64,000 bases of DNA from Candidatus Kapaibacterium sp. (GTDB lineage Bacteria; Bacteroidota; Ignavibacteria; Kapaibacteriales; UBA2268): NCBI GenBank assembly GCA_026390695.1, contig JAPLFL010000128.1, forward strand, positions 124,001 to 188,000, given 5' to 3'. A model generated the notes under the pieces. It saw only the letters and a list, made by a program, of their open reading frames with translations, searched no databases and was not told where the DNA came from. Shown here one piece after another: positions 9,261 through 21,934 of this stretch (position 1 is its first letter; each line of letters starts with the position of its first letter). Both the position numbers and the translations under genes were made by a program.

Positions 9261-10772
9261 ATGATCAACGATAACTTATCAGAAGCAGAAATCAAAGAAT
9301 TAGTTAAATCAACTCCGGGGAGTTTTGCTGTAATTATTTCCAGTAAAAAATACAAAACTCACTACCAAGGGAAAAATAAACGCCGAATACCTATCCCACA
9401 TCTGGAAAAGATTGATGTATTACTAAGAAAAGTCGTTGATGGTGAAATCAAGCGCTTGATTATAAATATGCCACCGCGTCATGGGAAAAGTGAACTTATT
9501 TCCAAATATTTTCCTGCATGGTTCCTTTGTAAATTTCCTGATAAACGTGTGATATTAGCAGCATATGGCTCAAGCCTGGCAGTTAGTTTTGGAAGAAAAA
9601 TCAGAAACCTTTTAAAGGGAAATTCAAAGTTTTTTAATATTGAACTCGATCCGGCATCCTGTTCAGTTCATAGTTTTTCGATCAAAGGACACGATGGTGG
9701 AATGGACAGCGTAGGTGTCGGTGGCGCAATAACCGGAAAAGGGGCGGATTTGCTGATAATCGACGATCCCGTGAAGAATTACAAGGAAGCTAATAGCCAA
9801 ACCCACCGCGATAATATCTGGGAATGGTTCATCTCTACTGCTTATACAAGAATTGAGCCCGATGGGGCAATAATTATCGTTATGACTCGCTGGCATGATG
9901 ACGATCTTTGTGGCAGATTACTTAATAAATCTTATGAGGATATAAAAGATAAATGGGAATTTCTTTGTTTACCGGCAATTGCCGAACTTGATGATCCCTT
10001 GGAACGCAATGCGGGTGATGCTTTGTGGAAGCGGCGATTTAATTTAAAGAAGCTTTTATCAATTAAAAATCAATTAGGTAATTATTGGTTTTCTGCGCTT
10101 TACCAGCAAAGACCTTCTCCGATGGGCGGCGGAATATTCAAACGATCATTCTTCAAATATTATTCTGATGATAATGAGTTCTATTATCTTTATCATTTGA
10201 ATCTAACGAAAATAGATTCGATAAAATTCCGCAAGTCAGAATGCTCAATCTACGCTTCCATGGATCTTGCCGTAACCCAAAATCAGACTTCTGACTATAC
10301 GGTGATTATTCTTTTTGCAGTAACAAAAATGAGGGATGTCCTGATACTTGACATTATTCGTGATAGATTCCAGGGTGCTGATCATTTGAACCTATTAAAA
10401 CGGGTATATGAACGCTTTAAACCCTCAATAATAGGTATTGAATCAACTCAATATCAGGTTACTCTTGTGCAATCGGCATTACGTGAAGGATTACCGGTAA
10501 AAAAGCTAAAACCTGATGCCGATAAGGTGACACGAGCGCTTGCAATGCAGGCAAGAGTCGAAGCCGGAACTGTCTATTTCAAATCCGAAGCTGCTTGGCT
10601 TAATGAATTTGAGCAAGAGTTATTAATGTTTCCAAACGTTAAGCATGATGACCAGACTGATGCTTTCTCTTACATTGCCAAATTAATTGAGCCTGTATCA
10701 AACAATGCTCCGGCTGCGGCTAATGTAAATACAAAAACAAAAAAGAGTATAACAAGGGGGTTTGAGAGTTGA
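9261..10772 (+). CDS. terL: Orphan phage-type terminase large subunit
   Basis: 503 residues, the usual length for a complete large terminase. The N-terminal ATPase has Walker A PPRHGKS (71-77), a Walker B LLIIDDP (about 164-170) and the coupling region IVMTRWHDDDLCGRLL. The C-terminal RNase-H-like nuclease shows its acidic triad in context: YASMDLAVTQNQTSDYT, IIGIESTQYQ and KHDDQTDAFSYI. In phages this motor packages DNA into procapsids. No portal, capsid, small terminase or tail gene lies nearby; the flanks are repeats and an unrelated gene. It is either the last relic of a prophage or a domesticated terminase. All motifs are intact and it has a plausible promoter, which argues against simple decay. 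Confidence 0.9.
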   Translation: MINDNLSEAEIKELVKSTPGSFAVIISSKKYKTHYQGKNKRRIPIPHLEKIDVLLRKVVDGEIKRLIINMPPRHGKSELISKYFPAWFLCKFPDKRVILAAYGSSLAVSFGRKIRNLLKGNSKFFNIELDPASCSVHSFSIKGHDGGMDSVGVGGAITGKGADLLIIDDPVKNYKEANSQTHRDNIWEWFISTAYTRIEPDGAIIIVMTRWHDDDLCGRLLNKSYEDIKDKWEFLCLPAIAELDDPLERNAGDALWKRRFNLKKLLSIKNQLGNYWFSALYQQRPSPMGGGIFKRSFFKYYSDDNEFYYLYHLNLTKIDSIKFRKSECSIYASMDLAVTQNQTSDYTVIILFAVTKMRDVLILDIIRDRFQGADHLNLLKRVYERFKPSIIGIESTQYQVTLVQSALREGLPVKKLKPDADKVTRALAMQARVEAGTVYFKSEAAWLNEFEQELLMFPNVKHDDQTDAFSYIAKLIEPVSNNAPAAANVNTKTKKSITRGFES

Positions 10773-12979: not shown

Positions 12980-13296
12980 TTGATAGTTGAATTGATTAAT
13001 ATAACAAATTTAAGAAAAAAATTCGGAAATAGCAACAAAACAACTATTTTTGAATAAATATTAGAATGAGGCAGTCACCTGAAAATCTGTAATTTTTCAA
13101 TCAATGAAGTGAGAAGATGATATACAATTAAAAAAATTGAGATTCATCAGTCTTTAGCAATAATATTTTATAATAATTCTTGCATATTAAAAATATATAT
13201 TGTAATTTGGTTTTGGCTTGTATAGTACATAAAAATATTCGAACTCTTGTTTTTTTAAATATAAATAAATGATTATTTCTAAATTTTGGAGGACAA
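12980..13296. other. Intergenic region between exosortase and protease genes
   Basis: This 317-base, AT-rich divergent gap has no gene or repeat that I can support. It should hold promoters for both directions, but no convincing consensus pair was found. GGAGGA at 13288-13293 is the ribosome-binding site of the next gene. Confidence 0.5.
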
Positions 13297-15721
13297 ATGT
13301 TTAAACTAACTATTTTTTTAATCTCGCTTCTGTGCGCATTTTCCACGGATTTACTATGTCAGACGCTTGACACAATTCCTATCCCCCCCCCCCCCCGATT
13401 CATCTTATGTATCTAACGAATTAATTATTTGGTTCCGACCCGAAGCACTGAATCTGAACCTTCTCTGCTGGGAATTACCGGCACCAAAAGCAAAGAAGGG
13501 AGAAAATTCACTAATGGAAATACCAACTTATATCAGACAAAATTTATATTCACAGAAATTCGCAGTAGATGACCTTATAACGGACACTACCCTCATCAAT
13601 GTAATTAAAGCCATTGGTGGTGATTCACTATCAAGGATGACGATTGCAAGTCCATGCAGGGATTCTCTTTCTCTTACGCGATATGGGGACACATTAAGAG
13701 TTGCTGATTATTTGTGGATGGTTCTGCATATTAATAACGATACAAGTGTTAGTGTCGGAGCACTTGCTCTAAATGCAGTATGCACAAATTCAATTGTATA
13801 TGCCGGTCCCGACTTTAAATATCAATTGCATAATGAACCAAATGATTTATATTATCTCGGAGTTATGGGCTCGGAGCAGAGAAGCTTTAAATCTGATATT
13901 ATGAATATTGAACGAGCATGGGATTTTCAAATTGGAAAAAGGGATATACGAATAGGAGTAATTGATGATGGAATCTATTACCCTCATTGTGATTTAGGAA
14001 CTGATCTCGGTTTTAAAGTAATTAGCGGATACAACTATTCTAATAATAATTCTCATTTTGAATCACAATCCAGTCATGGAACTCGTGTAGCTGGTATAAT
14101 TGGCGCTCTTACGAATCGTTCATGTGGTTCTAACAATCCTTCTGTTGCAGGTATTGCCGGAGGGTGGGGACCTGGGACAAATGATGAAGATTATAGATCA
14201 AAATTATTTGGCTTCCGATGTGCCGATAAAGATAATAACAATTATATCCTAAGTAAACATGCTGTCAGTGCAATCAGAGAAGGAGTCTATAATTATGTTA
14301 GCGAAGATGAAGAAGAACCTTTGAAACTTGATGTTATAAACTGCTCCTGGGAAGACTATTATGATCCTGCACTCTTTGCAGCACTCACTTATGCACATGC
14401 TCATGGGGCTTCTGTTGTGACATCTCGTGGAAATGGTAAAGGTTCAAATTATTATGGTGATGGAACTAATATCTCGTATCAATATCCAGCTTGCTATCCA
14501 AATGATATTATCACATCAGTAGGTGCAGGAAGAATAAATAAAACCAAGACTTATTATTCCCATTACGGGCTTGGAATGGACTTTCTTGCTCCGGGAGGTT
14601 ATACTAAGGATAAAGATGGAAACAACACACCCGATGAAGCAATAGTTTATACAACAACCTATAATTCAGCACCTAACTGGGGTTGGTTTGATGGCACTTC
14701 TGCTGCGGCTCCTCATGTATCGGGTCTAATCGCTCTCCTTCGCTCTGAAGACTGGATAGGTTTAGCCCCTGAAGATTACGAAGGTATGCTTAAAGCCTCG
14801 TGCGAAGACCAAGTGTATGATCAAACAGATTATATTACTAATTATGATGAAATCTCTGGATGGGGACATGTACAAGCTGATAATATTTTTAATATGATTC
14901 ATGAAGATGATTATATTTGCAAGCATTATAGTCTTGAAAATGAAGAAGCTATTTATCATGGTGATTGGATTGATATAGGAACAATTTATATGGGTAATGA
15001 ATTTTCATACTATCCTCTAAATCAAAATTATCCAAAATTATATAAAGCAAAATACCGCGAGATATATGGAACTATTGCCATTCCAAGTTCGGATTTTGTA
15101 TTTGACGATAATGTTCCACTTTACGCATGGGGTTGGTCAAGGCAATTACATCGTTTCGTGAATGGAACCGGTTATCGAAAGCCAACTTATGGAAGAGATC
15201 AATATAGTAAAATAGTTCCACTCCCTCTTTTAACAGATGGCTTCTCAGAAGTAACGACCGGAACAGGTGGTAATAATATTGTTCCGGGGATAATTCATAC
15301 AAACAACAGATATGTTGGTGTCCGTGCTTATCAATATGAATTAAAAGACCCACAATCAAATATGTTGATAGGTTATTTCCCTGACGACGGCACAGTTAGC
15401 CATGATTTAGGACTACATATCACTGTTTTCGGGAAGCAAATACCTTTGGCAGTAGAAAATCAAAGCCAGATAATCAAGAATGATATTATTGTATATCCAA
15501 ATCCTTGTTCAGATAAAATTACAATAAAATTAGCACCAAATATGGCTACTGAAGCTCTTATTGAAATATTCGACATTATAGGTAATATAGTTCTAACAAT
15601 TAATTCTTCAGGATTAAACACAAAAACCATTAATATTGAAACTCTGGAATCCGGAATTTACTATATTAAATTACAATCTGAAGGTTCAGTAAAAATAATT
15701 CCTTTCAATGTAATTAAATAG
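13297..15721 (+). CDS. T9SS-secreted subtilisin-like protease, out of frame at a poly-C tract
   Basis: The ATG at 13297 follows GGAGGA and opens a perfect signal peptide (MFKLTIFLISLLCAFS, then LLCQTLDTIP). That frame enters 14 consecutive C at 13383-13396 and then stops at an early TAA. The protease frame starts downstream of the signal and can be entered only from a TTG at 13367, which would give an unexported protein. With 13 C (or 10 or 16) the two parts join into 807 residues. Counting from the TTG, the S8 catalytic residues are Asp200 (GVIDDG), His237 (SSHGTRVAG), Asn356 (SRGNG) and Ser445 (FDGTSAAAPHVSG). The C-terminal 80 residues (VYPNPCSDKITIK to the C-terminal IPFNVIK) are a T9SS type-A sorting domain. 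A lipoprotein gene follows 8 bases on. Confidence 0.88.
13383..13396 (+). repeat. Homopolymeric tract of 14 C inside the protease coding region
   Basis: Fourteen uninterrupted C in an AT-rich genome, placed just after the signal-peptide codons. Gain or loss of one base moves the protease in or out of frame with its signal peptide. With 14 C the gene is 'off'; with 13 it is 'on', encoding a Pro-rich linker. Confidence 0.95.
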
Positions 15722-15729
15722 GTAAAGCC

Positions 15730-16797
15730 ATGAAGACATTATTTACTTATTGCATGGTTGCAATATCAATTATTTTCATTAGTTGCCACAACTCAAACTC
15801 CCCTGTGAATAAATGTGGTTTGATTGAAGATACCGGGCCAGGAGGAATAGATGTGATACCAAAATTTGAGCAAGAGTTTATTTATGGTGTTTCAAAAAAT
15901 GGCGATAAATTAGCATTTTCTTATGATGAGTTTGACGTTAAAATTCTTAATTTAAAGACTCTTGAAGTACGAAAACTTGATTTTAGTAAGCTACTAAATC
16001 AAAATGAAAGATTCCTTTGTTTATTTGAGGTAATCTGGAGTCCTGACGATAATAATCAATTATTAATCAATATGTCAGTTGGTACCGATACAAATAACAA
16101 TGGGAGATGGAATCAGTATGGAGTTAACCAATATATTTATGACGATGTTTGTAACATTTTGACAAGAATTACACCAAGTAAATTTGGGAAATATGGTACT
16201 CATGATTATAATTGTAGGGTTATCAATTGGTTAAATTGTTCAGAATATAATGGAAGTTTTATATTATTCAATATATATGGCATTTATCATATCTCCACAG
16301 GTTACTTTGATCCATTTAATAAAAAATATTCGTGTATTAGTAAAAATTGTAATTTCTATTTGAATTATTTTTTAGAATATGATAATAACGGAGTTAAGAA
16401 TTCATTTTATTTAATTAATGATTATAGGTTATTTTTTAAAGATTCATTCCACAGTATATCTAACGGGTATCCATCTTGGTCCCCAAATTCAAAAAAACTG
16501 GCTATGACAGTTATTGTTGACGGTGAGGATAATATTCCATATAGCGAGAGACGTTTTGATGAAGTTTGGATAATTGATATTGAGAAGTTCATGCGAGATA
16601 AACCAAGTATCGTGCCGGTTCAGAAGATAAACTTCAAGAATCTGTATTGCCGTTTCACTCATAATGCAGCAGTTTATATCACAGATTCAACATTAGCCGT
16701 GTCTCTTGGTCAGTGGGGTGGCAATGATTCGTTAGGCTACTTGTATGAAATAAACGAACGTGGAGATATATTGCGACAGCTTACTTTTGAGCCTTAA
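15730..16797 (+). CDS. Lipoprotein with WD40/TolB-like beta-propeller repeats
   Basis: 355 residues with a lipoprotein signal ending IIFISC-HNSN (Cys at about 20). Repeats such as VIWSPDDNNQLLINMS and GYPSWSPNSKKLAMTV are the 'W SPDG..l' blades of the TolB/PD40 family. A final blade, TLAVSLGQWGGNDS, precedes YEINERGDILRQL. It starts 8 bases after the protease stop codon and is probably co-transcribed with it, so the two may act together at the cell surface. No enzyme motif is visible. A perfect hairpin follows the stop codon. Confidence 0.7.
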   Translation: MKTLFTYCMVAISIIFISCHNSNSPVNKCGLIEDTGPGGIDVIPKFEQEFIYGVSKNGDKLAFSYDEFDVKILNLKTLEVRKLDFSKLLNQNERFLCLFEVIWSPDDNNQLLINMSVGTDTNNNGRWNQYGVNQYIYDDVCNILTRITPSKFGKYGTHDYNCRVINWLNCSEYNGSFILFNIYGIYHISTGYFDPFNKKYSCISKNCNFYLNYFLEYDNNGVKNSFYLINDYRLFFKDSFHSISNGYPSWSPNSKKLAMTVIVDGEDNIPYSERRFDEVWIIDIEKFMRDKPSIVPVQKINFKNLYCRFTHNAAVYITDSTLAVSLGQWGGNDSLGYLYEINERGDILRQLTFEP

Positions 16798-16889: not shown

Positions 16890-19697
16890 TTAACTCAAGA
16901 ACAAACCTATTATAATCCAAACAACTACACTTAGTCCGATTATTAAGGCTGTAAAACCAAAAACACGCATCATTTTGAGAAGTTGTGGTGAAGATGGTAC
17001 TTCCATATAATCATCAAGACGTCCTTCATTAATTAGTCTTTCATATTCGGCAGGGCGATCAAGCTTCAATTCCGCCAAGTGCATCTGACCTGTAAATATG
17101 ACAGTATCCATAGGGAATTTCTCAGGACGAAAATGAGTATTGAAGAAGTGTACTGTGAAAATAAATCCGGCTGCAAGCAATGCCTCGTCGCTGTGAACGA
17201 TCGTCGCAATATTTACCATCCACCCTGGTAATACCTTCGTGAATAGCACAGGCATCCAGAGCATCATTCCGGTTGATCCGATGATAAATACACCCCAGAA
17301 TACTGCAAAATAATCGAATTTTTCCCAGTATGTCCATTTACCATACTGTGGGCGTGGACCTTTTCCGAGGAACCATTTGAAAGATGCTTTGACATCAGCA
17401 AGATCTTTCATATTTGGAACCATTGAATCAGAACCGATAAGCAATTTTTTCCATGATTTGAAATGTCTTTTCTTTTTACGGAACAGATCATAGACATGAA
17501 TAATAAATATCGTAAATAGCATGGTTGCTGCAAGACGATGGATCAAGCCTGCATTTTCTGCACCACCGAACAAAGTCGCTAAAAATTGTGCAAATCCAGT
17601 ATATGAGAATTTTAGAATCATTCCCGTAACAGCAAGGCTTAGGAAACTTATAATCATCAGCACGTGGAGTAGTCTCTCCAAATGAGTAAAGCGTGCAAAT
17701 CGTTTCGCATTCTCTTCACCGGCATGATCGGCTGCAGCTGCTTTCATCTGTTTACGCATTGAAATTGATTTCGGCAACCATAACAAAGTATGTAAAAATG
17801 AAATCGTAAAAGTGCCAAGTAAAAGCAGTGTCATTGCCCAGAAAGTTATAAACAGCAAAGGCCACTTTACTCTGTCTTTGTGGGTTGCGTGAGTGAAATA
17901 ATCTGTAAACCGTTTGTTAGCGTCTTTATGGCATTTCTGACAAGTGGCTATAATATTGCTTCTGCTCAATTTTGAATTAACATCATCTACCGGCAATATA
18001 TCGTGAGAACCATGGCAGTCGCTACATTTAGCTGCTTTTGATACACCGAGACGCGAAACTTTACCATGATAAGTATCAAAATATGTTTCTGCAATGTCTT
18101 CGTGGCATTTACCACAACTTGTTAAGATTTCAGTTCTGAAATTATTTGCATCAGTCCTTTTAATCGTATGAGCTGTATGGCAATCACTGCACACTGGAAG
18201 CTTTTTTGTTGATTTTGAAACTAATGGAGAATGGATGCTCTTGTTAAATTTCTCTTCAATACCGAAGTGACATTTTCCGCATGTTAAAGAGATATTTTTA
18301 GGATTGATAGAAGAAGCCGGATTTTTTTCAGGAAGTCCGCCATGAGCCGTATGGCAATCAGCACAAGTAGCGGTTACGGTCAATCCCGACTTGATCAATC
18401 CTTTTCCGTGAATACTCTCCGAATATTTATCTACAATCTGATGTTCGGTGCCTGTATAGAGTTTTGCAGCTTGTTTCCCTTCCTGATGGCACTTGGAGCA
18501 AAGTTTCGGGACATTAAGCGGAAATATCGGAGAGTTATGATTTGTTTTACCCAAAATATTATGCGATCCATGGCAATCAAAACAAAATGGTGCATTTTTA
18601 TCATTTTTGGCTAATAACAATCCATGTGTTCCTGTTTTATACATATCTGAAACTGCGGTATGGCACGATGCACATTCAACTCTTTTCTGAATATTATCAC
18701 AGGGGCGGGCATGTTTGGGGTCAACGTCAAGATGGCATTGAGAACATGCGATTTTTGAATGCTTTGAGCCTACGATTTCATCATGATTGACGAACATTGA
18801 TTTGCCATTCGCAGCTTTTAAATTTTTATCATCATGGCATTTTCTACACGTCCCATCAGCAGCATTAGCTTCATAAAATACCTTACGAGCCTTATGTGGT
18901 TGATGACAATCAATACAAGCTGGCAATACCTTTGCTTCTTTTTCCCAAAGCTCACCCTTGATTACTTTTTTATGAACATTTTCAATTGAAGCATGGCATT
19001 TGGTGCAGGTTGCAGCAATATTTGTTCTTGAAATTGTAGAACGGGAATCAGTATGAGGTAAAATTCTATGAGGAGAGTGACATGATGCACAAGTTGCTGT
19101 GACTGTCAATCCTTTTTTCAAAAGACCTTCGCCATGAATACTTTCGGAATAATTTTCCAATATATGCTTTTGGGAAATATTTCTCATTACTGAGACAGGG
19201 CCGCCTTCTTTATGGCATTTACCGCACAGATTGGGAATATTCAGCGGATAAACCGGAGATTGTTTGTCCTTGTTCGGAACAATACTATGAGAACCATGGC
19301 AAGACTGACAGGTTGGTGCTAATGGATCTTTTTTTCCAAAGGCTTTGCCGTGCATACATTGATTATAAAGTTCCTGCTGCGATTTATGGCAGCCCCCGCA
19401 TGTGGGACGCTGAGGTTTTGCATGTGGAAATTCAGAATTTTTAAGATCAACGTGGCATCCTATGCACTTTTCTTTAGTATGAACTGATTTTACAAAAATT
19501 TTATTATTAAAAAAAACAGATACGGATTTCCCGTTACGGGTTCCTTTCAGGCTTGGGTCTTCGTGGCACATTAAACAGTCGCTGTTATCCTGTGCAATTA
19601 ATTTAATATTGACTAATAAGAAAAAATAACTAATTAATAAAAAATAACTACGAAGTCCTGCCTCTTTTTTACGCTTAAATGACGAATAAGTTAGCAT
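16890..19697 (-). CDS. 19-haem c-type cytochrome fused to a cytochrome b-like membrane domain
   Basis: 935 residues with an N-terminal signal or anchor (YFLLISYFFLLVNIKLIAQ). Nineteen CxxCH haem c sites lie between about residues 40 and 595, the region repeating 'YSESIHG.GL.K.GLTVTATCA.CH' units that indicate internal duplication. From about 610 a membrane domain with roughly five helices follows. Its helix histidines (LERLLHVLMI, GLIHRLAATM, IIHVYDLF, IVHSDEA, FTVHFFNTHF) fit a b561/formate dehydrogenase gamma fold binding two haem b. The architecture resembles CbcL-type quinol-oxidising cytochromes of Geobacter, but with far more c haems. It should move electrons between the quinone pool and periplasmic acceptors. 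It is the last gene of the minus-strand respiratory cluster. Confidence 0.88.
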   Translation of the reverse strand: MLTYSSFKRKKEAGLRSYFLLISYFFLLVNIKLIAQDNSDCLMCHEDPSLKGTRNGKSVSVFFNNKIFVKSVHTKEKCIGCHVDLKNSEFPHAKPQRPTCGGCHKSQQELYNQCMHGKAFGKKDPLAPTCQSCHGSHSIVPNKDKQSPVYPLNIPNLCGKCHKEGGPVSVMRNISQKHILENYSESIHGEGLLKKGLTVTATCASCHSPHRILPHTDSRSTISRTNIAATCTKCHASIENVHKKVIKGELWEKEAKVLPACIDCHQPHKARKVFYEANAADGTCRKCHDDKNLKAANGKSMFVNHDEIVGSKHSKIACSQCHLDVDPKHARPCDNIQKRVECASCHTAVSDMYKTGTHGLLLAKNDKNAPFCFDCHGSHNILGKTNHNSPIFPLNVPKLCSKCHQEGKQAAKLYTGTEHQIVDKYSESIHGKGLIKSGLTVTATCADCHTAHGGLPEKNPASSINPKNISLTCGKCHFGIEEKFNKSIHSPLVSKSTKKLPVCSDCHTAHTIKRTDANNFRTEILTSCGKCHEDIAETYFDTYHGKVSRLGVSKAAKCSDCHGSHDILPVDDVNSKLSRSNIIATCQKCHKDANKRFTDYFTHATHKDRVKWPLLFITFWAMTLLLLGTFTISFLHTLLWLPKSISMRKQMKAAAADHAGEENAKRFARFTHLERLLHVLMIISFLSLAVTGMILKFSYTGFAQFLATLFGGAENAGLIHRLAATMLFTIFIIHVYDLFRKKKRHFKSWKKLLIGSDSMVPNMKDLADVKASFKWFLGKGPRPQYGKWTYWEKFDYFAVFWGVFIIGSTGMMLWMPVLFTKVLPGWMVNIATIVHSDEALLAAGFIFTVHFFNTHFRPEKFPMDTVIFTGQMHLAELKLDRPAEYERLINEGRLDDYMEVPSSPQLLKMMRVFGFTALIIGLSVVVWIIIGLFLS

Positions 19698-19769
19698 TGA
19701 TTGTTCCGAATATATAACAAATAATTATTATCAAAAATCCAAATTGTTGAATTATTGTTAGTTTAATGA

Positions 19770-20459
19770 TTAATCCACATCCTCTATTTCTTCATCAGGA
19801 TTATCATTTGCCTCTTTTGCAGCATTATCTATCATTTCCTGCGAGTCATGCAATTCATGCCATCCATTTAGTATTGACTTGAAATTACTAAATAATGTAT
19901 GACCGGTTGTGGACAGATAAATATGCGAAAACATAAACAAACTTAAAAAGAAACCGATGATTATATGCAGAATAGCCATTGGCCATACTCCACCCATACC
20001 TAATATTTCACCGGGTGAAAGCTCGGGAAACATGAGCATAAGTCCTGTAAAAATAACAATTGGAACCATTACAAAGATTACAAAAAGATATGCAATCTGC
20101 TGCAAAGGATTAAATTTAATATTATCACCAGGGCCGAATGGATGCGGTTCCCCACGGAAAATACCAATCAGGTAATATCTCACCTGTTTAACTGATCTTG
20201 GGAAATATTCCAATACATTTGGTATATAATATTTCCAATTTCCGGATATTATATTGAATAAAGTATAATATGCAAAATTTACTGATAACAGAATACCGGC
20301 TGTATTATGTGAGAGACGGGCTGTATCAAAGGAAAGAAGAAACGGACTTGTATCCGAAAAGTGGAGTGATATTCCGGAAACAATCAATACTAAAAAACAT
20401 AGTGCGTTAATTACGTGCCAAATTCTTAGCCAAAGTGGATATAAATATACTTTTTTCAT
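19770..20459 (-). CDS. Cytochrome b561-type membrane subunit
   Basis: 229 residues with four to five membrane helices. Histidines sit where b-type haem ligands are expected: LRIWHVINALCF, ARLSHNTAGILL, MAILHIIIGFF and FMFSHIYLSTTGHT. This is the Ni/Fe-hydrogenase/thiosulfate-reductase cytochrome b fold. The acidic tail (DNPDEEIEDVD) is cytoplasmic or interfacial. Its start overlaps the stop of the 13-haem cytochrome by 4 bases (ATGA), so the two subunits are made together. It probably passes electrons between quinol and that cytochrome. The family call is firm; the direction of electron flow is not known. Confidence 0.85.
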   Translation of the reverse strand: MKKVYLYPLWLRIWHVINALCFLVLIVSGISLHFSDTSPFLLSFDTARLSHNTAGILLSVNFAYYTLFNIISGNWKYYIPNVLEYFPRSVKQVRYYLIGIFRGEPHPFGPGDNIKFNPLQQIAYLFVIFVMVPIVIFTGLMLMFPELSPGEILGMGGVWPMAILHIIIGFFLSLFMFSHIYLSTTGHTLFSNFKSILNGWHELHDSQEMIDNAAKEANDNPDEEIEDVD

Positions 20460-21934
20460 AAACTTCTTCTCCTTCTATTAGTCACCCAACGCATAGTTCC
20501 ATGTATAAAAACACCAATGAATGTAAATACAGTCAATAAAACACTCATTACATCTAAAAAGATATTCCTTGTTGAGCCGATTACATAAGCGTCACTCAAT
20601 AATGTTCCGTTGACGAATCCGTATTTCTCTCTTGATTGCTTTTTCTGATGTTTATATAACTTAGCCATAAGTTTGGAATTTTGCTGATGGCAGCCTTCGC
20701 ACTTTTTAATGGTTTTTTCGGGTGGTAAAATATTATGTGATAAATTGGGCGGTGCATAAGATGAATGACAATCTACACAGCGAACAGTTTCCCAGTGAGC
20801 TTCTTTATTAGGCAGCCAATCATGAGCTTTTTCAATTGTGTTTAACTTGTATTTTTTCATCATTGCTTCATCGGCATGGCAGACCACACAATAAAACATT
20901 TTTGTTCTGATCAGAGTAGCACGCTTCATCAAAGATTCTTCGTACATTTTATGCGGGATTTCAGGTTGAGCCTTAATTCCATGCTCTCCATGACAGAATG
21001 TACAGCCGGGAGCATCTTTTTCTCCTTTTTTAAGAGCAATACCGTGTACACTCATTCTATATTCTCTCGACACTTCAATGTGGCATTTACCGCACAATTC
21101 CGGCACCTTTGCCTGATTGATTCTTGAATCGGGATTATCTGCTTTCTGTAATTTATGCACACCATGGCAGTCAATACAAACGGCAGCCTCTTTCTTCCCT
21201 TTTGCTAAGGCCTGGCCATGCACGCTTTGCTCATAATTTACAAGAGATTTCGAATAAGGACTTGTAACTGCCGGATTATGTAAATGGCATGACAAGCAGA
21301 GTTTCACCTGATTTGCTTTAAGTTCGGCAGGTGCAAGAAGCGATGCTTTTGTTACAGGTTGCTTATGGCAGTAAATACATGTCGGGACATTAGGATTATT
21401 GTTTGAGTAAGCAAAAAAGTGTTCACTCTGCAGATGTTGTTCTTTTTTATCTTTATGACAATTTCCACAAAAATCCAGAAGTTTTGTAAAATGGAATTTT
21501 GAATTAGGATCCTTAGGTGATGTAATATCGTGATGACCATGGCAGCCCTTACAATCAACATTTGGAGCGCCACCCTGGCCGGTTGCTCTTGCCATCTGAG
21601 GATGGAACTTATGGCGTGATGGTGCATCATAATGACAATTCATGCAATTCGGCGTTTCGATATTGGCTTTGTGAGGAATATTATTTGGGTCGAAGCCAAC
21701 ATGGCAGCTTATACAGTTCAACTTTTTATGAACAGATCGAGCAAAAACAAACTTTTTTACGGTTAATGAAATCACTTTACCGTTTTTTTCTTTCGTTATT
21801 GAAGCATCATCATGGCAGCCAAGACAAAGGTCATTATCTTGAGCAGCCAATTTAAAATGATTCAAGCCTGAAAAGAACGAAATCAGCAAAATCAATCTCA
21901 AGATTAACTTCAATTTTTTACTAATTAATTTCAT
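20456..21934 (-). CDS. 13-haem c-type cytochrome with C-terminal membrane anchor
   Basis: 492 residues with a signal peptide (LILRLILLISFFSG, then AAQDNDLC). I count 13 CxxCH sites: CLGCH, CISCH, CMNCH, CKGCH, CGNCH, CIYCH, CLSCH, CIDCH, CGKCH, CTFCH, CVVCH, CVDCH and CEGCH. A single helix near 455-475 (VMSVLLTVFTFIGVFIHG) followed by TNRRRRSL anchors it with the basic tail inside. The paired 'CHG.H' motifs (CKGCHGHHD, CIDCHGVHK, CTFCHGEHG) supply extra axial histidines as in other multihaem cytochromes. Translationally coupled to the following cytochrome b, it is a periplasmic electron conduit of the complex. Confidence 0.9.
   Translation of the reverse strand: MKLISKKLKLILRLILLISFFSGLNHFKLAAQDNDLCLGCHDDASITKEKNGKVISLTVKKFVFARSVHKKLNCISCHVGFDPNNIPHKANIETPNCMNCHYDAPSRHKFHPQMARATGQGGAPNVDCKGCHGHHDITSPKDPNSKFHFTKLLDFCGNCHKDKKEQHLQSEHFFAYSNNNPNVPTCIYCHKQPVTKASLLAPAELKANQVKLCLSCHLHNPAVTSPYSKSLVNYEQSVHGQALAKGKKEAAVCIDCHGVHKLQKADNPDSRINQAKVPELCGKCHIEVSREYRMSVHGIALKKGEKDAPGCTFCHGEHGIKAQPEIPHKMYEESLMKRATLIRTKMFYCVVCHADEAMMKKYKLNTIEKAHDWLPNKEAHWETVRCVDCHSSYAPPNLSHNILPPEKTIKKCEGCHQQNSKLMAKLYKHQKKQSREKYGFVNGTLLSDAYVIGSTRNIFLDVMSVLLTVFTFIGVFIHGTMRWVTNRRRRSL

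Follow-up and report, generated by a model that had tools for sequence, protein, structure and literature searches.

How can a gene that encodes a protease with the tail of a secreted protein lie in a different reading frame from its own export signal? The question is raised by a subtilase locus in a 64,000-nucleotide stretch of DNA from Candidatus Kapaibacterium sp. (hereafter the window, that is, the whole stretch analysed), the source genome being a 4.63-Mb draft in 129 contigs. We believe that the run of C at which the two frames meet very probably serves as a phase-variation switch, placed at the export signal of a T9SS-secreted subtilase and working by slipped-strand changes in the length of the homopolymer, a mechanism that is established in Neisseria and Campylobacter and that we infer here from the anatomy of the locus and from comparison with its relatives. 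The gene is one case of an order-wide habit, in which secreted-protein genes carry C/G tracts at their start.

As judged by base count and frame listing, a leader frame and a subtilase frame that differ from one another meet at the C run (Table 1). The leader frame reads MFKLTIFLISLLCAFSTDLLCQTLDTIPIPPPP... from its ATG and supplies a predicted Sec signal peptide (called by eye and from hydrophobicity, with a hydrophobic segment score of 2.72) that lies upstream of the subtilase body but, as assembled, in the other frame. A Shine-Dalgarno-like motif of the kind that precedes this ATG was found 5′ of 17 of the 36 open reading frames (ORFs) of the window, against 8% of random positions. The alternative start of the subtilase frame, TTG 13367, was rejected as the true start, as it has neither a Shine-Dalgarno-like motif before it nor a signal peptide after it. 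Residues D200, H237 and S445, which we take from their motifs to be the catalytic Asp-His-Ser triad, are invariant across a nine-member subtilase alignment, and the family profile matches the chains of AK.1 protease and thermitase. A Pfam search at E values up to 0.1 gave only the S8 and Por_Secre_tail domains in the subtilase, with no autotransporter beta-domain, and the genome encodes a PorU sortase (NF033707, 758.8 bits against a cut-off of 420).

Table 1 Features of the subtilase locus, in window coordinates
Feature	Position	Strand	Basis or remark
Shine-Dalgarno-like GGAGG	13288..13292	+	Sequence; 4 bases 5′ of the leader ATG
Leader frame	13297..13416	+	ATG, signal peptide, 39 codons, TAA 13414-13416 at 14 C
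Signal peptide MFKLTIFLISLLCAFSTDLLCQ	13297..13362	+	End set by eye against family members
14-C run, proposed slippage site	13383..13396	+	Within codons of the conserved Pro-Pro-Pro-Asp motif
Subtilase frame	13367..15721	+	784 codons from TTG; 799 stop to stop
Peptidase_S8 domain	13940..14812	+	PF00082, E=1e-30, residues 192-482
T9SS type A C-terminal sorting domain	15491..15688	+	PF18962 (Por_Secre_tail), E=2.2e-14, residues 709-774; TIGR04183, E=1.9e-10
Propeller (PD40) lipoprotein-like gene	15730..16797	+	8 nt 3′ of the subtilase stop; Pfam, lipobox by eye

These results agree with a preliminary description of the locus, which had placed a Shine-Dalgarno sequence, an ATG and a signal peptide in one frame (GGAGG at 13288-13292 and ATG 13297 are confirmed) and an intact subtilase with a T9SS tail in a second (784 codons, both domains and an invariant triad), meeting at a C run whose length is indeed exactly 14. 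Its calculation that the removal of one C would join the frames into an 807-residue protein was rechecked and holds. The two frames look like a single ancestral gene, given that family members without a tract and with an unbroken frame read RGDTIxYxxPPPDSxYxxNELII and align with both of them: LDTI in the leader frame resembles RGDTI (a pre-junction match that is short and made by eye), and PPPDSSYxxNELII continues in the subtilase frame.

For such a locus we infer a change of run length within the population, export of the protease by ON cells and polarity on the lipoprotein gene, in the following steps. Translation would begin at ATG 13297, and at 14 C the ribosome would pass the run out of the subtilase frame and stop after 39 codons, leaving a short leader peptide (OFF). 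Replication slippage would alter the run by one or a few C, and in one length class out of three the signal peptide and the protease would be joined (ON), such that ON cells would make the protease and export it first through Sec and then through the T9SS. The OFF state would probably also lower expression of the downstream lipoprotein through polarity. A relative of this lipoprotein lies downstream at 13 of the 23 other family loci (the test took 24 loci, two of which are pieces of one gene, and some of which end at a contig end downstream).

The run is exceptional in its genome. Two C/G runs of at least 10 were found, namely the C14 and one intergenic C10, so that the C14 is the only run of at least 11 in 4.63 Mb; extrapolation from the window's own C-run lengths gives an expectation of about 0.0005 runs of at least 14 per genome. 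CCC is the rarest Pro codon in the 36 ORFs of the window (78 of 591, tract included). That the source genome is rich in C runs overall was considered and discarded, as it has only three runs of at least 9. Two further runs were rejected as switches: the genomic C10, which is intergenic and lies inside a hairpin-like repeat, and a C8 at 38064 of the window, which sits between ORFs.

Of the 123 genomes of the order, 13 contain members of the subtilase family, as found with a profile of nine members (E up to 1e-60); the 24 entries represent 22 genes, as two of the genes each came up in two pieces. The order-level search scored at most 8 candidates per genome, and G040, with 8 found, may have more. 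The wider searches, in which the own order was included and 2 candidates were scored per genome, gave the family in 17 of the 391 class-level genomes and in 8 of the 395 phylum-level genomes. The preliminary description had proposed a comparison of orthologues, which was carried out in part and showed that they are not all tractless: all N-termini in the 13 genomes were read, and in 6 of the 22 genes a C/G run of 9-14 stands at the export signal, its placement taking three forms. In the first, the C run occupies the conserved Pro-Pro-Pro codons, as in the window gene (G000) and in G035, where a C10 in the homologous codons is in frame. In the second, a G run lies inside the signal peptide, as in G038, G047 and G054 (G11, G11 and G9, all assembled out of frame), which form one genus belonging to another family than the window genome. 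In the third, a G12 directly follows the signal peptide of the G011 member, which carries an additional N-terminal domain and is likewise out of frame. The other 16 genes, including a paralogue (35% identity) from the same genome as the window gene, have no such run.

The 13 genomes, which were picked for holding the subtilase family, have 50 runs of at least 9 in 43.4 Mb; at this density about 0.005 tract-bearing cases would be expected when 200 nt are taken at the N-terminus of every one of the 22 genes, against the 6 seen. If the window gene is omitted and the three congeners are treated as a single case, 3 tract cases stand against 21 genes (P=2e-8). Given this recurrence in relatives, a tract at the subtilase N-terminus is unlikely to be an accident. 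The backbone of the family tree is unresolved, with at least two tract changes on the tree, and the number of tract origins was judged from placement and base rather than from the tree.

Several other family members deserve mention. A G13 near the member in G066 was rejected as a switch of that gene, as it lies about 330 nt upstream and outside the gene. G040 holds at least 8 family copies (contigs C3, C4, C6, C12, C15 and C16), none with a tract, and also a run of nine C in an unrelated, secreted-looking gene (L147). In G014 (C20:5711-8025; L127 and L130) a family member is in two pieces with one TAA; no C/G run of at least 6 is listed in L130, and the split looks like ordinary frameshift or decay. 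A wider profile scan gave, among the best 80 of 313 matches, mostly partial ones at 24-31% identity from many phyla; L032 (35%), also among these 80, is by exact sequence identity a member of the family in a groundwater metagenome-assembled genome of the order (G112), which has no run of at least 9, so that its groundwater origin says nothing on the habitat of tract-bearing genomes.

The association extends beyond the subtilases. In a census of 122 genomes of the order, which were not picked for the subtilase family and for which all listed places were fetched, 59 have at least one C/G run of at least 11. Of 129 runs in total, 53 were dropped because a contig or locus end lay no more than 450 nt away, and 76 were classed, with positions in the same loci as the random control. 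N-termini of long ORFs hold 31 of these 76 runs, while 10.9% of the random positions fall there (P=2e-11), and the excess persists without the subtilase family (27 of 72, P=3e-9). The interior of long ORFs holds 4 (54% at random), the vicinity of the C-terminus 8 (14%) and the space outside any long ORF 33 (21%). The proportion of runs near ends suggests that assemblies often break near long C/G runs, and tract genes may consequently be undercounted.

An ATG led by a Shine-Dalgarno (SD) motif and open up to the tract was found in 26 genes (pooling runs of at least 9 in the 13 genomes with runs of at least 11 in the order), and 17 of 42 N-terminal cases have no such ATG, some of which are probably not genes. 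Among the 25 SD-led tract genes scored, 22 have a strongly hydrophobic N-terminus, compared with 15 among 35 ORFs of the window (P=0.0004, with a cut-off chosen post hoc). The tract may stand before, within or just after the signal peptide. The bodies led by tracts include the subtilase family, another S8 protein (L293) and a T9SS-tailed protein (L254); in L171 and L245, matches to the T9SS tail are below the cut-off.

Two further kinds of tract-led protein were observed. L181 and L184 of G014 are paralogous fibre-like proteins with YadA head and S74 chaperone domains, in which a C13 and a C11 lie between near-identical leader and signal peptide; both are out of frame, each in a different wrong phase. 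A second tract-led group comprises Cys-rich secreted proteins of about 190-300 residues (L147, L155, L193, L222, L228, L232, L270 and L294), to which the N-terminal part of L161/L170 also belongs. Several have a CCxxxxxxC-like motif, and no Pfam match was found in the seven that were scanned (all of the eight but L232). Kinship in this group was assigned mostly by eye, as BLAST joins only some pairs.

Most tract genes are assembled in the OFF state. This holds for 24 of the 26 SD-led genes, against an expectation of one third ON (P=0.0025), and for 32 of 40 tract genes without the SD rule (P=0.048); the count depends on that rule, and the genes are not all independent. Such an excess is not predicted by a freely random switch, and selection for OFF, or an ON state confined to a minority of cells, could possibly account for it. 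The states also bear on the suggestion that the run is simply misreported, that is, that its true length is fixed in frame and the gene is always on. Sequencers and assemblers generally have difficulty with long homopolymers, and the source genome is a draft of many contigs. Yet length errors cannot create a long run, and long C/G runs recur at the subtilase gene in four genera; random errors would moreover convert OFF to ON as readily as ON to OFF, yet the assemblies are mostly OFF. We therefore regard a mere length error as very improbable.

The out-of-frame bodies themselves are under constraint. Among the three congeners with G11, G11 and G9, all out of frame, dN/dS is 0.18-0.22 over about 760 codons, which implies translation of the bodies at a frequency sufficient for selection to act on them: purifying selection acts on the downstream frame in this genus, the one in which it is measurable. 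The three runs sit in nearly identical flanks, and their length differs between orthologues of related species. Values of 0.16 for the window gene against G035 and of 0.32-0.62 in four paralogue pairs of other tract-led genes carry little weight, as dS in these five pairs is 1.2-3.1, near saturation.

Constraint of this kind, like the OFF excess, would also follow if slippage of RNA polymerase or of the ribosome gave a constant small yield of full protein at any run length, with no heritable switch. However, the out-of-frame genes are split between the two wrong phases (13 against 10 of 23), which argues against any programmed shift of fixed size, and slippage in transcription and translation is best known on A/T runs, whereas the runs here are of C/G; we consider this explanation very improbable. 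That the gene is a decaying pseudogene with a chance frameshift in the run is scarcely credible, for although the gene as assembled cannot yield the full exported protein, its 784 codons are uninterrupted and encode an intact triad and tail, dN/dS is near 0.2 in orthologues that share the out-of-frame condition, and the run is far above background length. A switch by slippage during replication, as the preliminary description had proposed, thus gains support from the comparison with relatives and would fit these observations best.

To our knowledge, homopolymer phase variation has been studied mainly in host-associated pathogens. Known examples at the signal peptide are Opa repeats and the pilC poly-G run. 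In Bacteroides fragilis, capsule switching proceeds by promoter inversion, in contrast to the run slippage proposed for the window gene. The capsules of that species are an example of phase-variable surface products in the wider Bacteroidetes (PMC8698959). The nearest working analogue is NalP of Neisseria meningitidis, a surface subtilisin-like protease with a poly-C run in its coding region, which was found by immunoblot to be ON at 7, 10 and 13 C (PMC5472700 and PMC3723659). The window gene resembles it in being a predicted surface or secreted subtilase with a coding poly-C run, and the idea of a surface subtilase switched by poly-C is therefore not new. The likeness is one of outline, however: NalP comes from another phylum and is a lipid-anchored classical autotransporter, whereas the window protein has a T9SS tail and no detected autotransporter domain.

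Broader precedents differ in similar ways. Campylobacter has many poly-G/C genes (with a cut-off of 7 or more, 77% of runs lie within ORFs), and in Neisseria run lengths vary widely (for example G 9-21 or C 9-13) across modules that include outer-membrane, pilin and lipooligosaccharide (LOS) genes (PMC6321876 and PMC5953494). Compared with the phasomes of these distant lineages, the tracts of the order studied here are sparse (about 1.15 runs of at least 9 per Mb in the 13 family-holding genomes), and its N-terminal tracts cluster around export signals. Orsi et al. (2010) describe a general enrichment of homopolymers towards the 5′ ends of prokaryotic genes, where they permit reversible inactivation, for example in inlA (PMC2831843); their account is of poly-A and poly-T of up to 7 bases, whereas the order's runs are of C/G and 9-15 long. 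Searches of the open-licence literature turned up no account of homopolymer phase variation in this bacterial group or on T9SS cargo. Within the order the feature is not confined to the subtilase gene, since other secreted-protein genes also carry tracts.

On a wider scale, we tentatively suggest, as an idea that may well prove wrong, that this order possesses a phasome directed at export signals. Tracts between the start codon and the end of the signal peptide would then control subtilases, Cys-rich proteins, fibre-like proteins with YadA head and S74 domains and T9SS-tailed proteins, which would be mostly OFF, with a minority of cells bearing the cost of each and displaying it (that is, bet-hedging or division of labour). 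If switching at these genes is real, random switching of secretion would arise more widely and include T9SS proteases and surface proteins of a distant lineage; the costs and benefits of secreted enzymes would become testable, and tract lengths in metagenomes would give the share of export-capable cells.

The surroundings of the locus include genes of other kinds. At 9261-10772 of the window, near the subtilase locus, lies a gene for a terminase large subunit (Terminase_6N/6C), possibly part of a prophage remnant. Beyond the lipoprotein gene, the minus strand at 16890-21934 encodes a cluster of multihaem cytochromes and a cytochrome b561-type protein.
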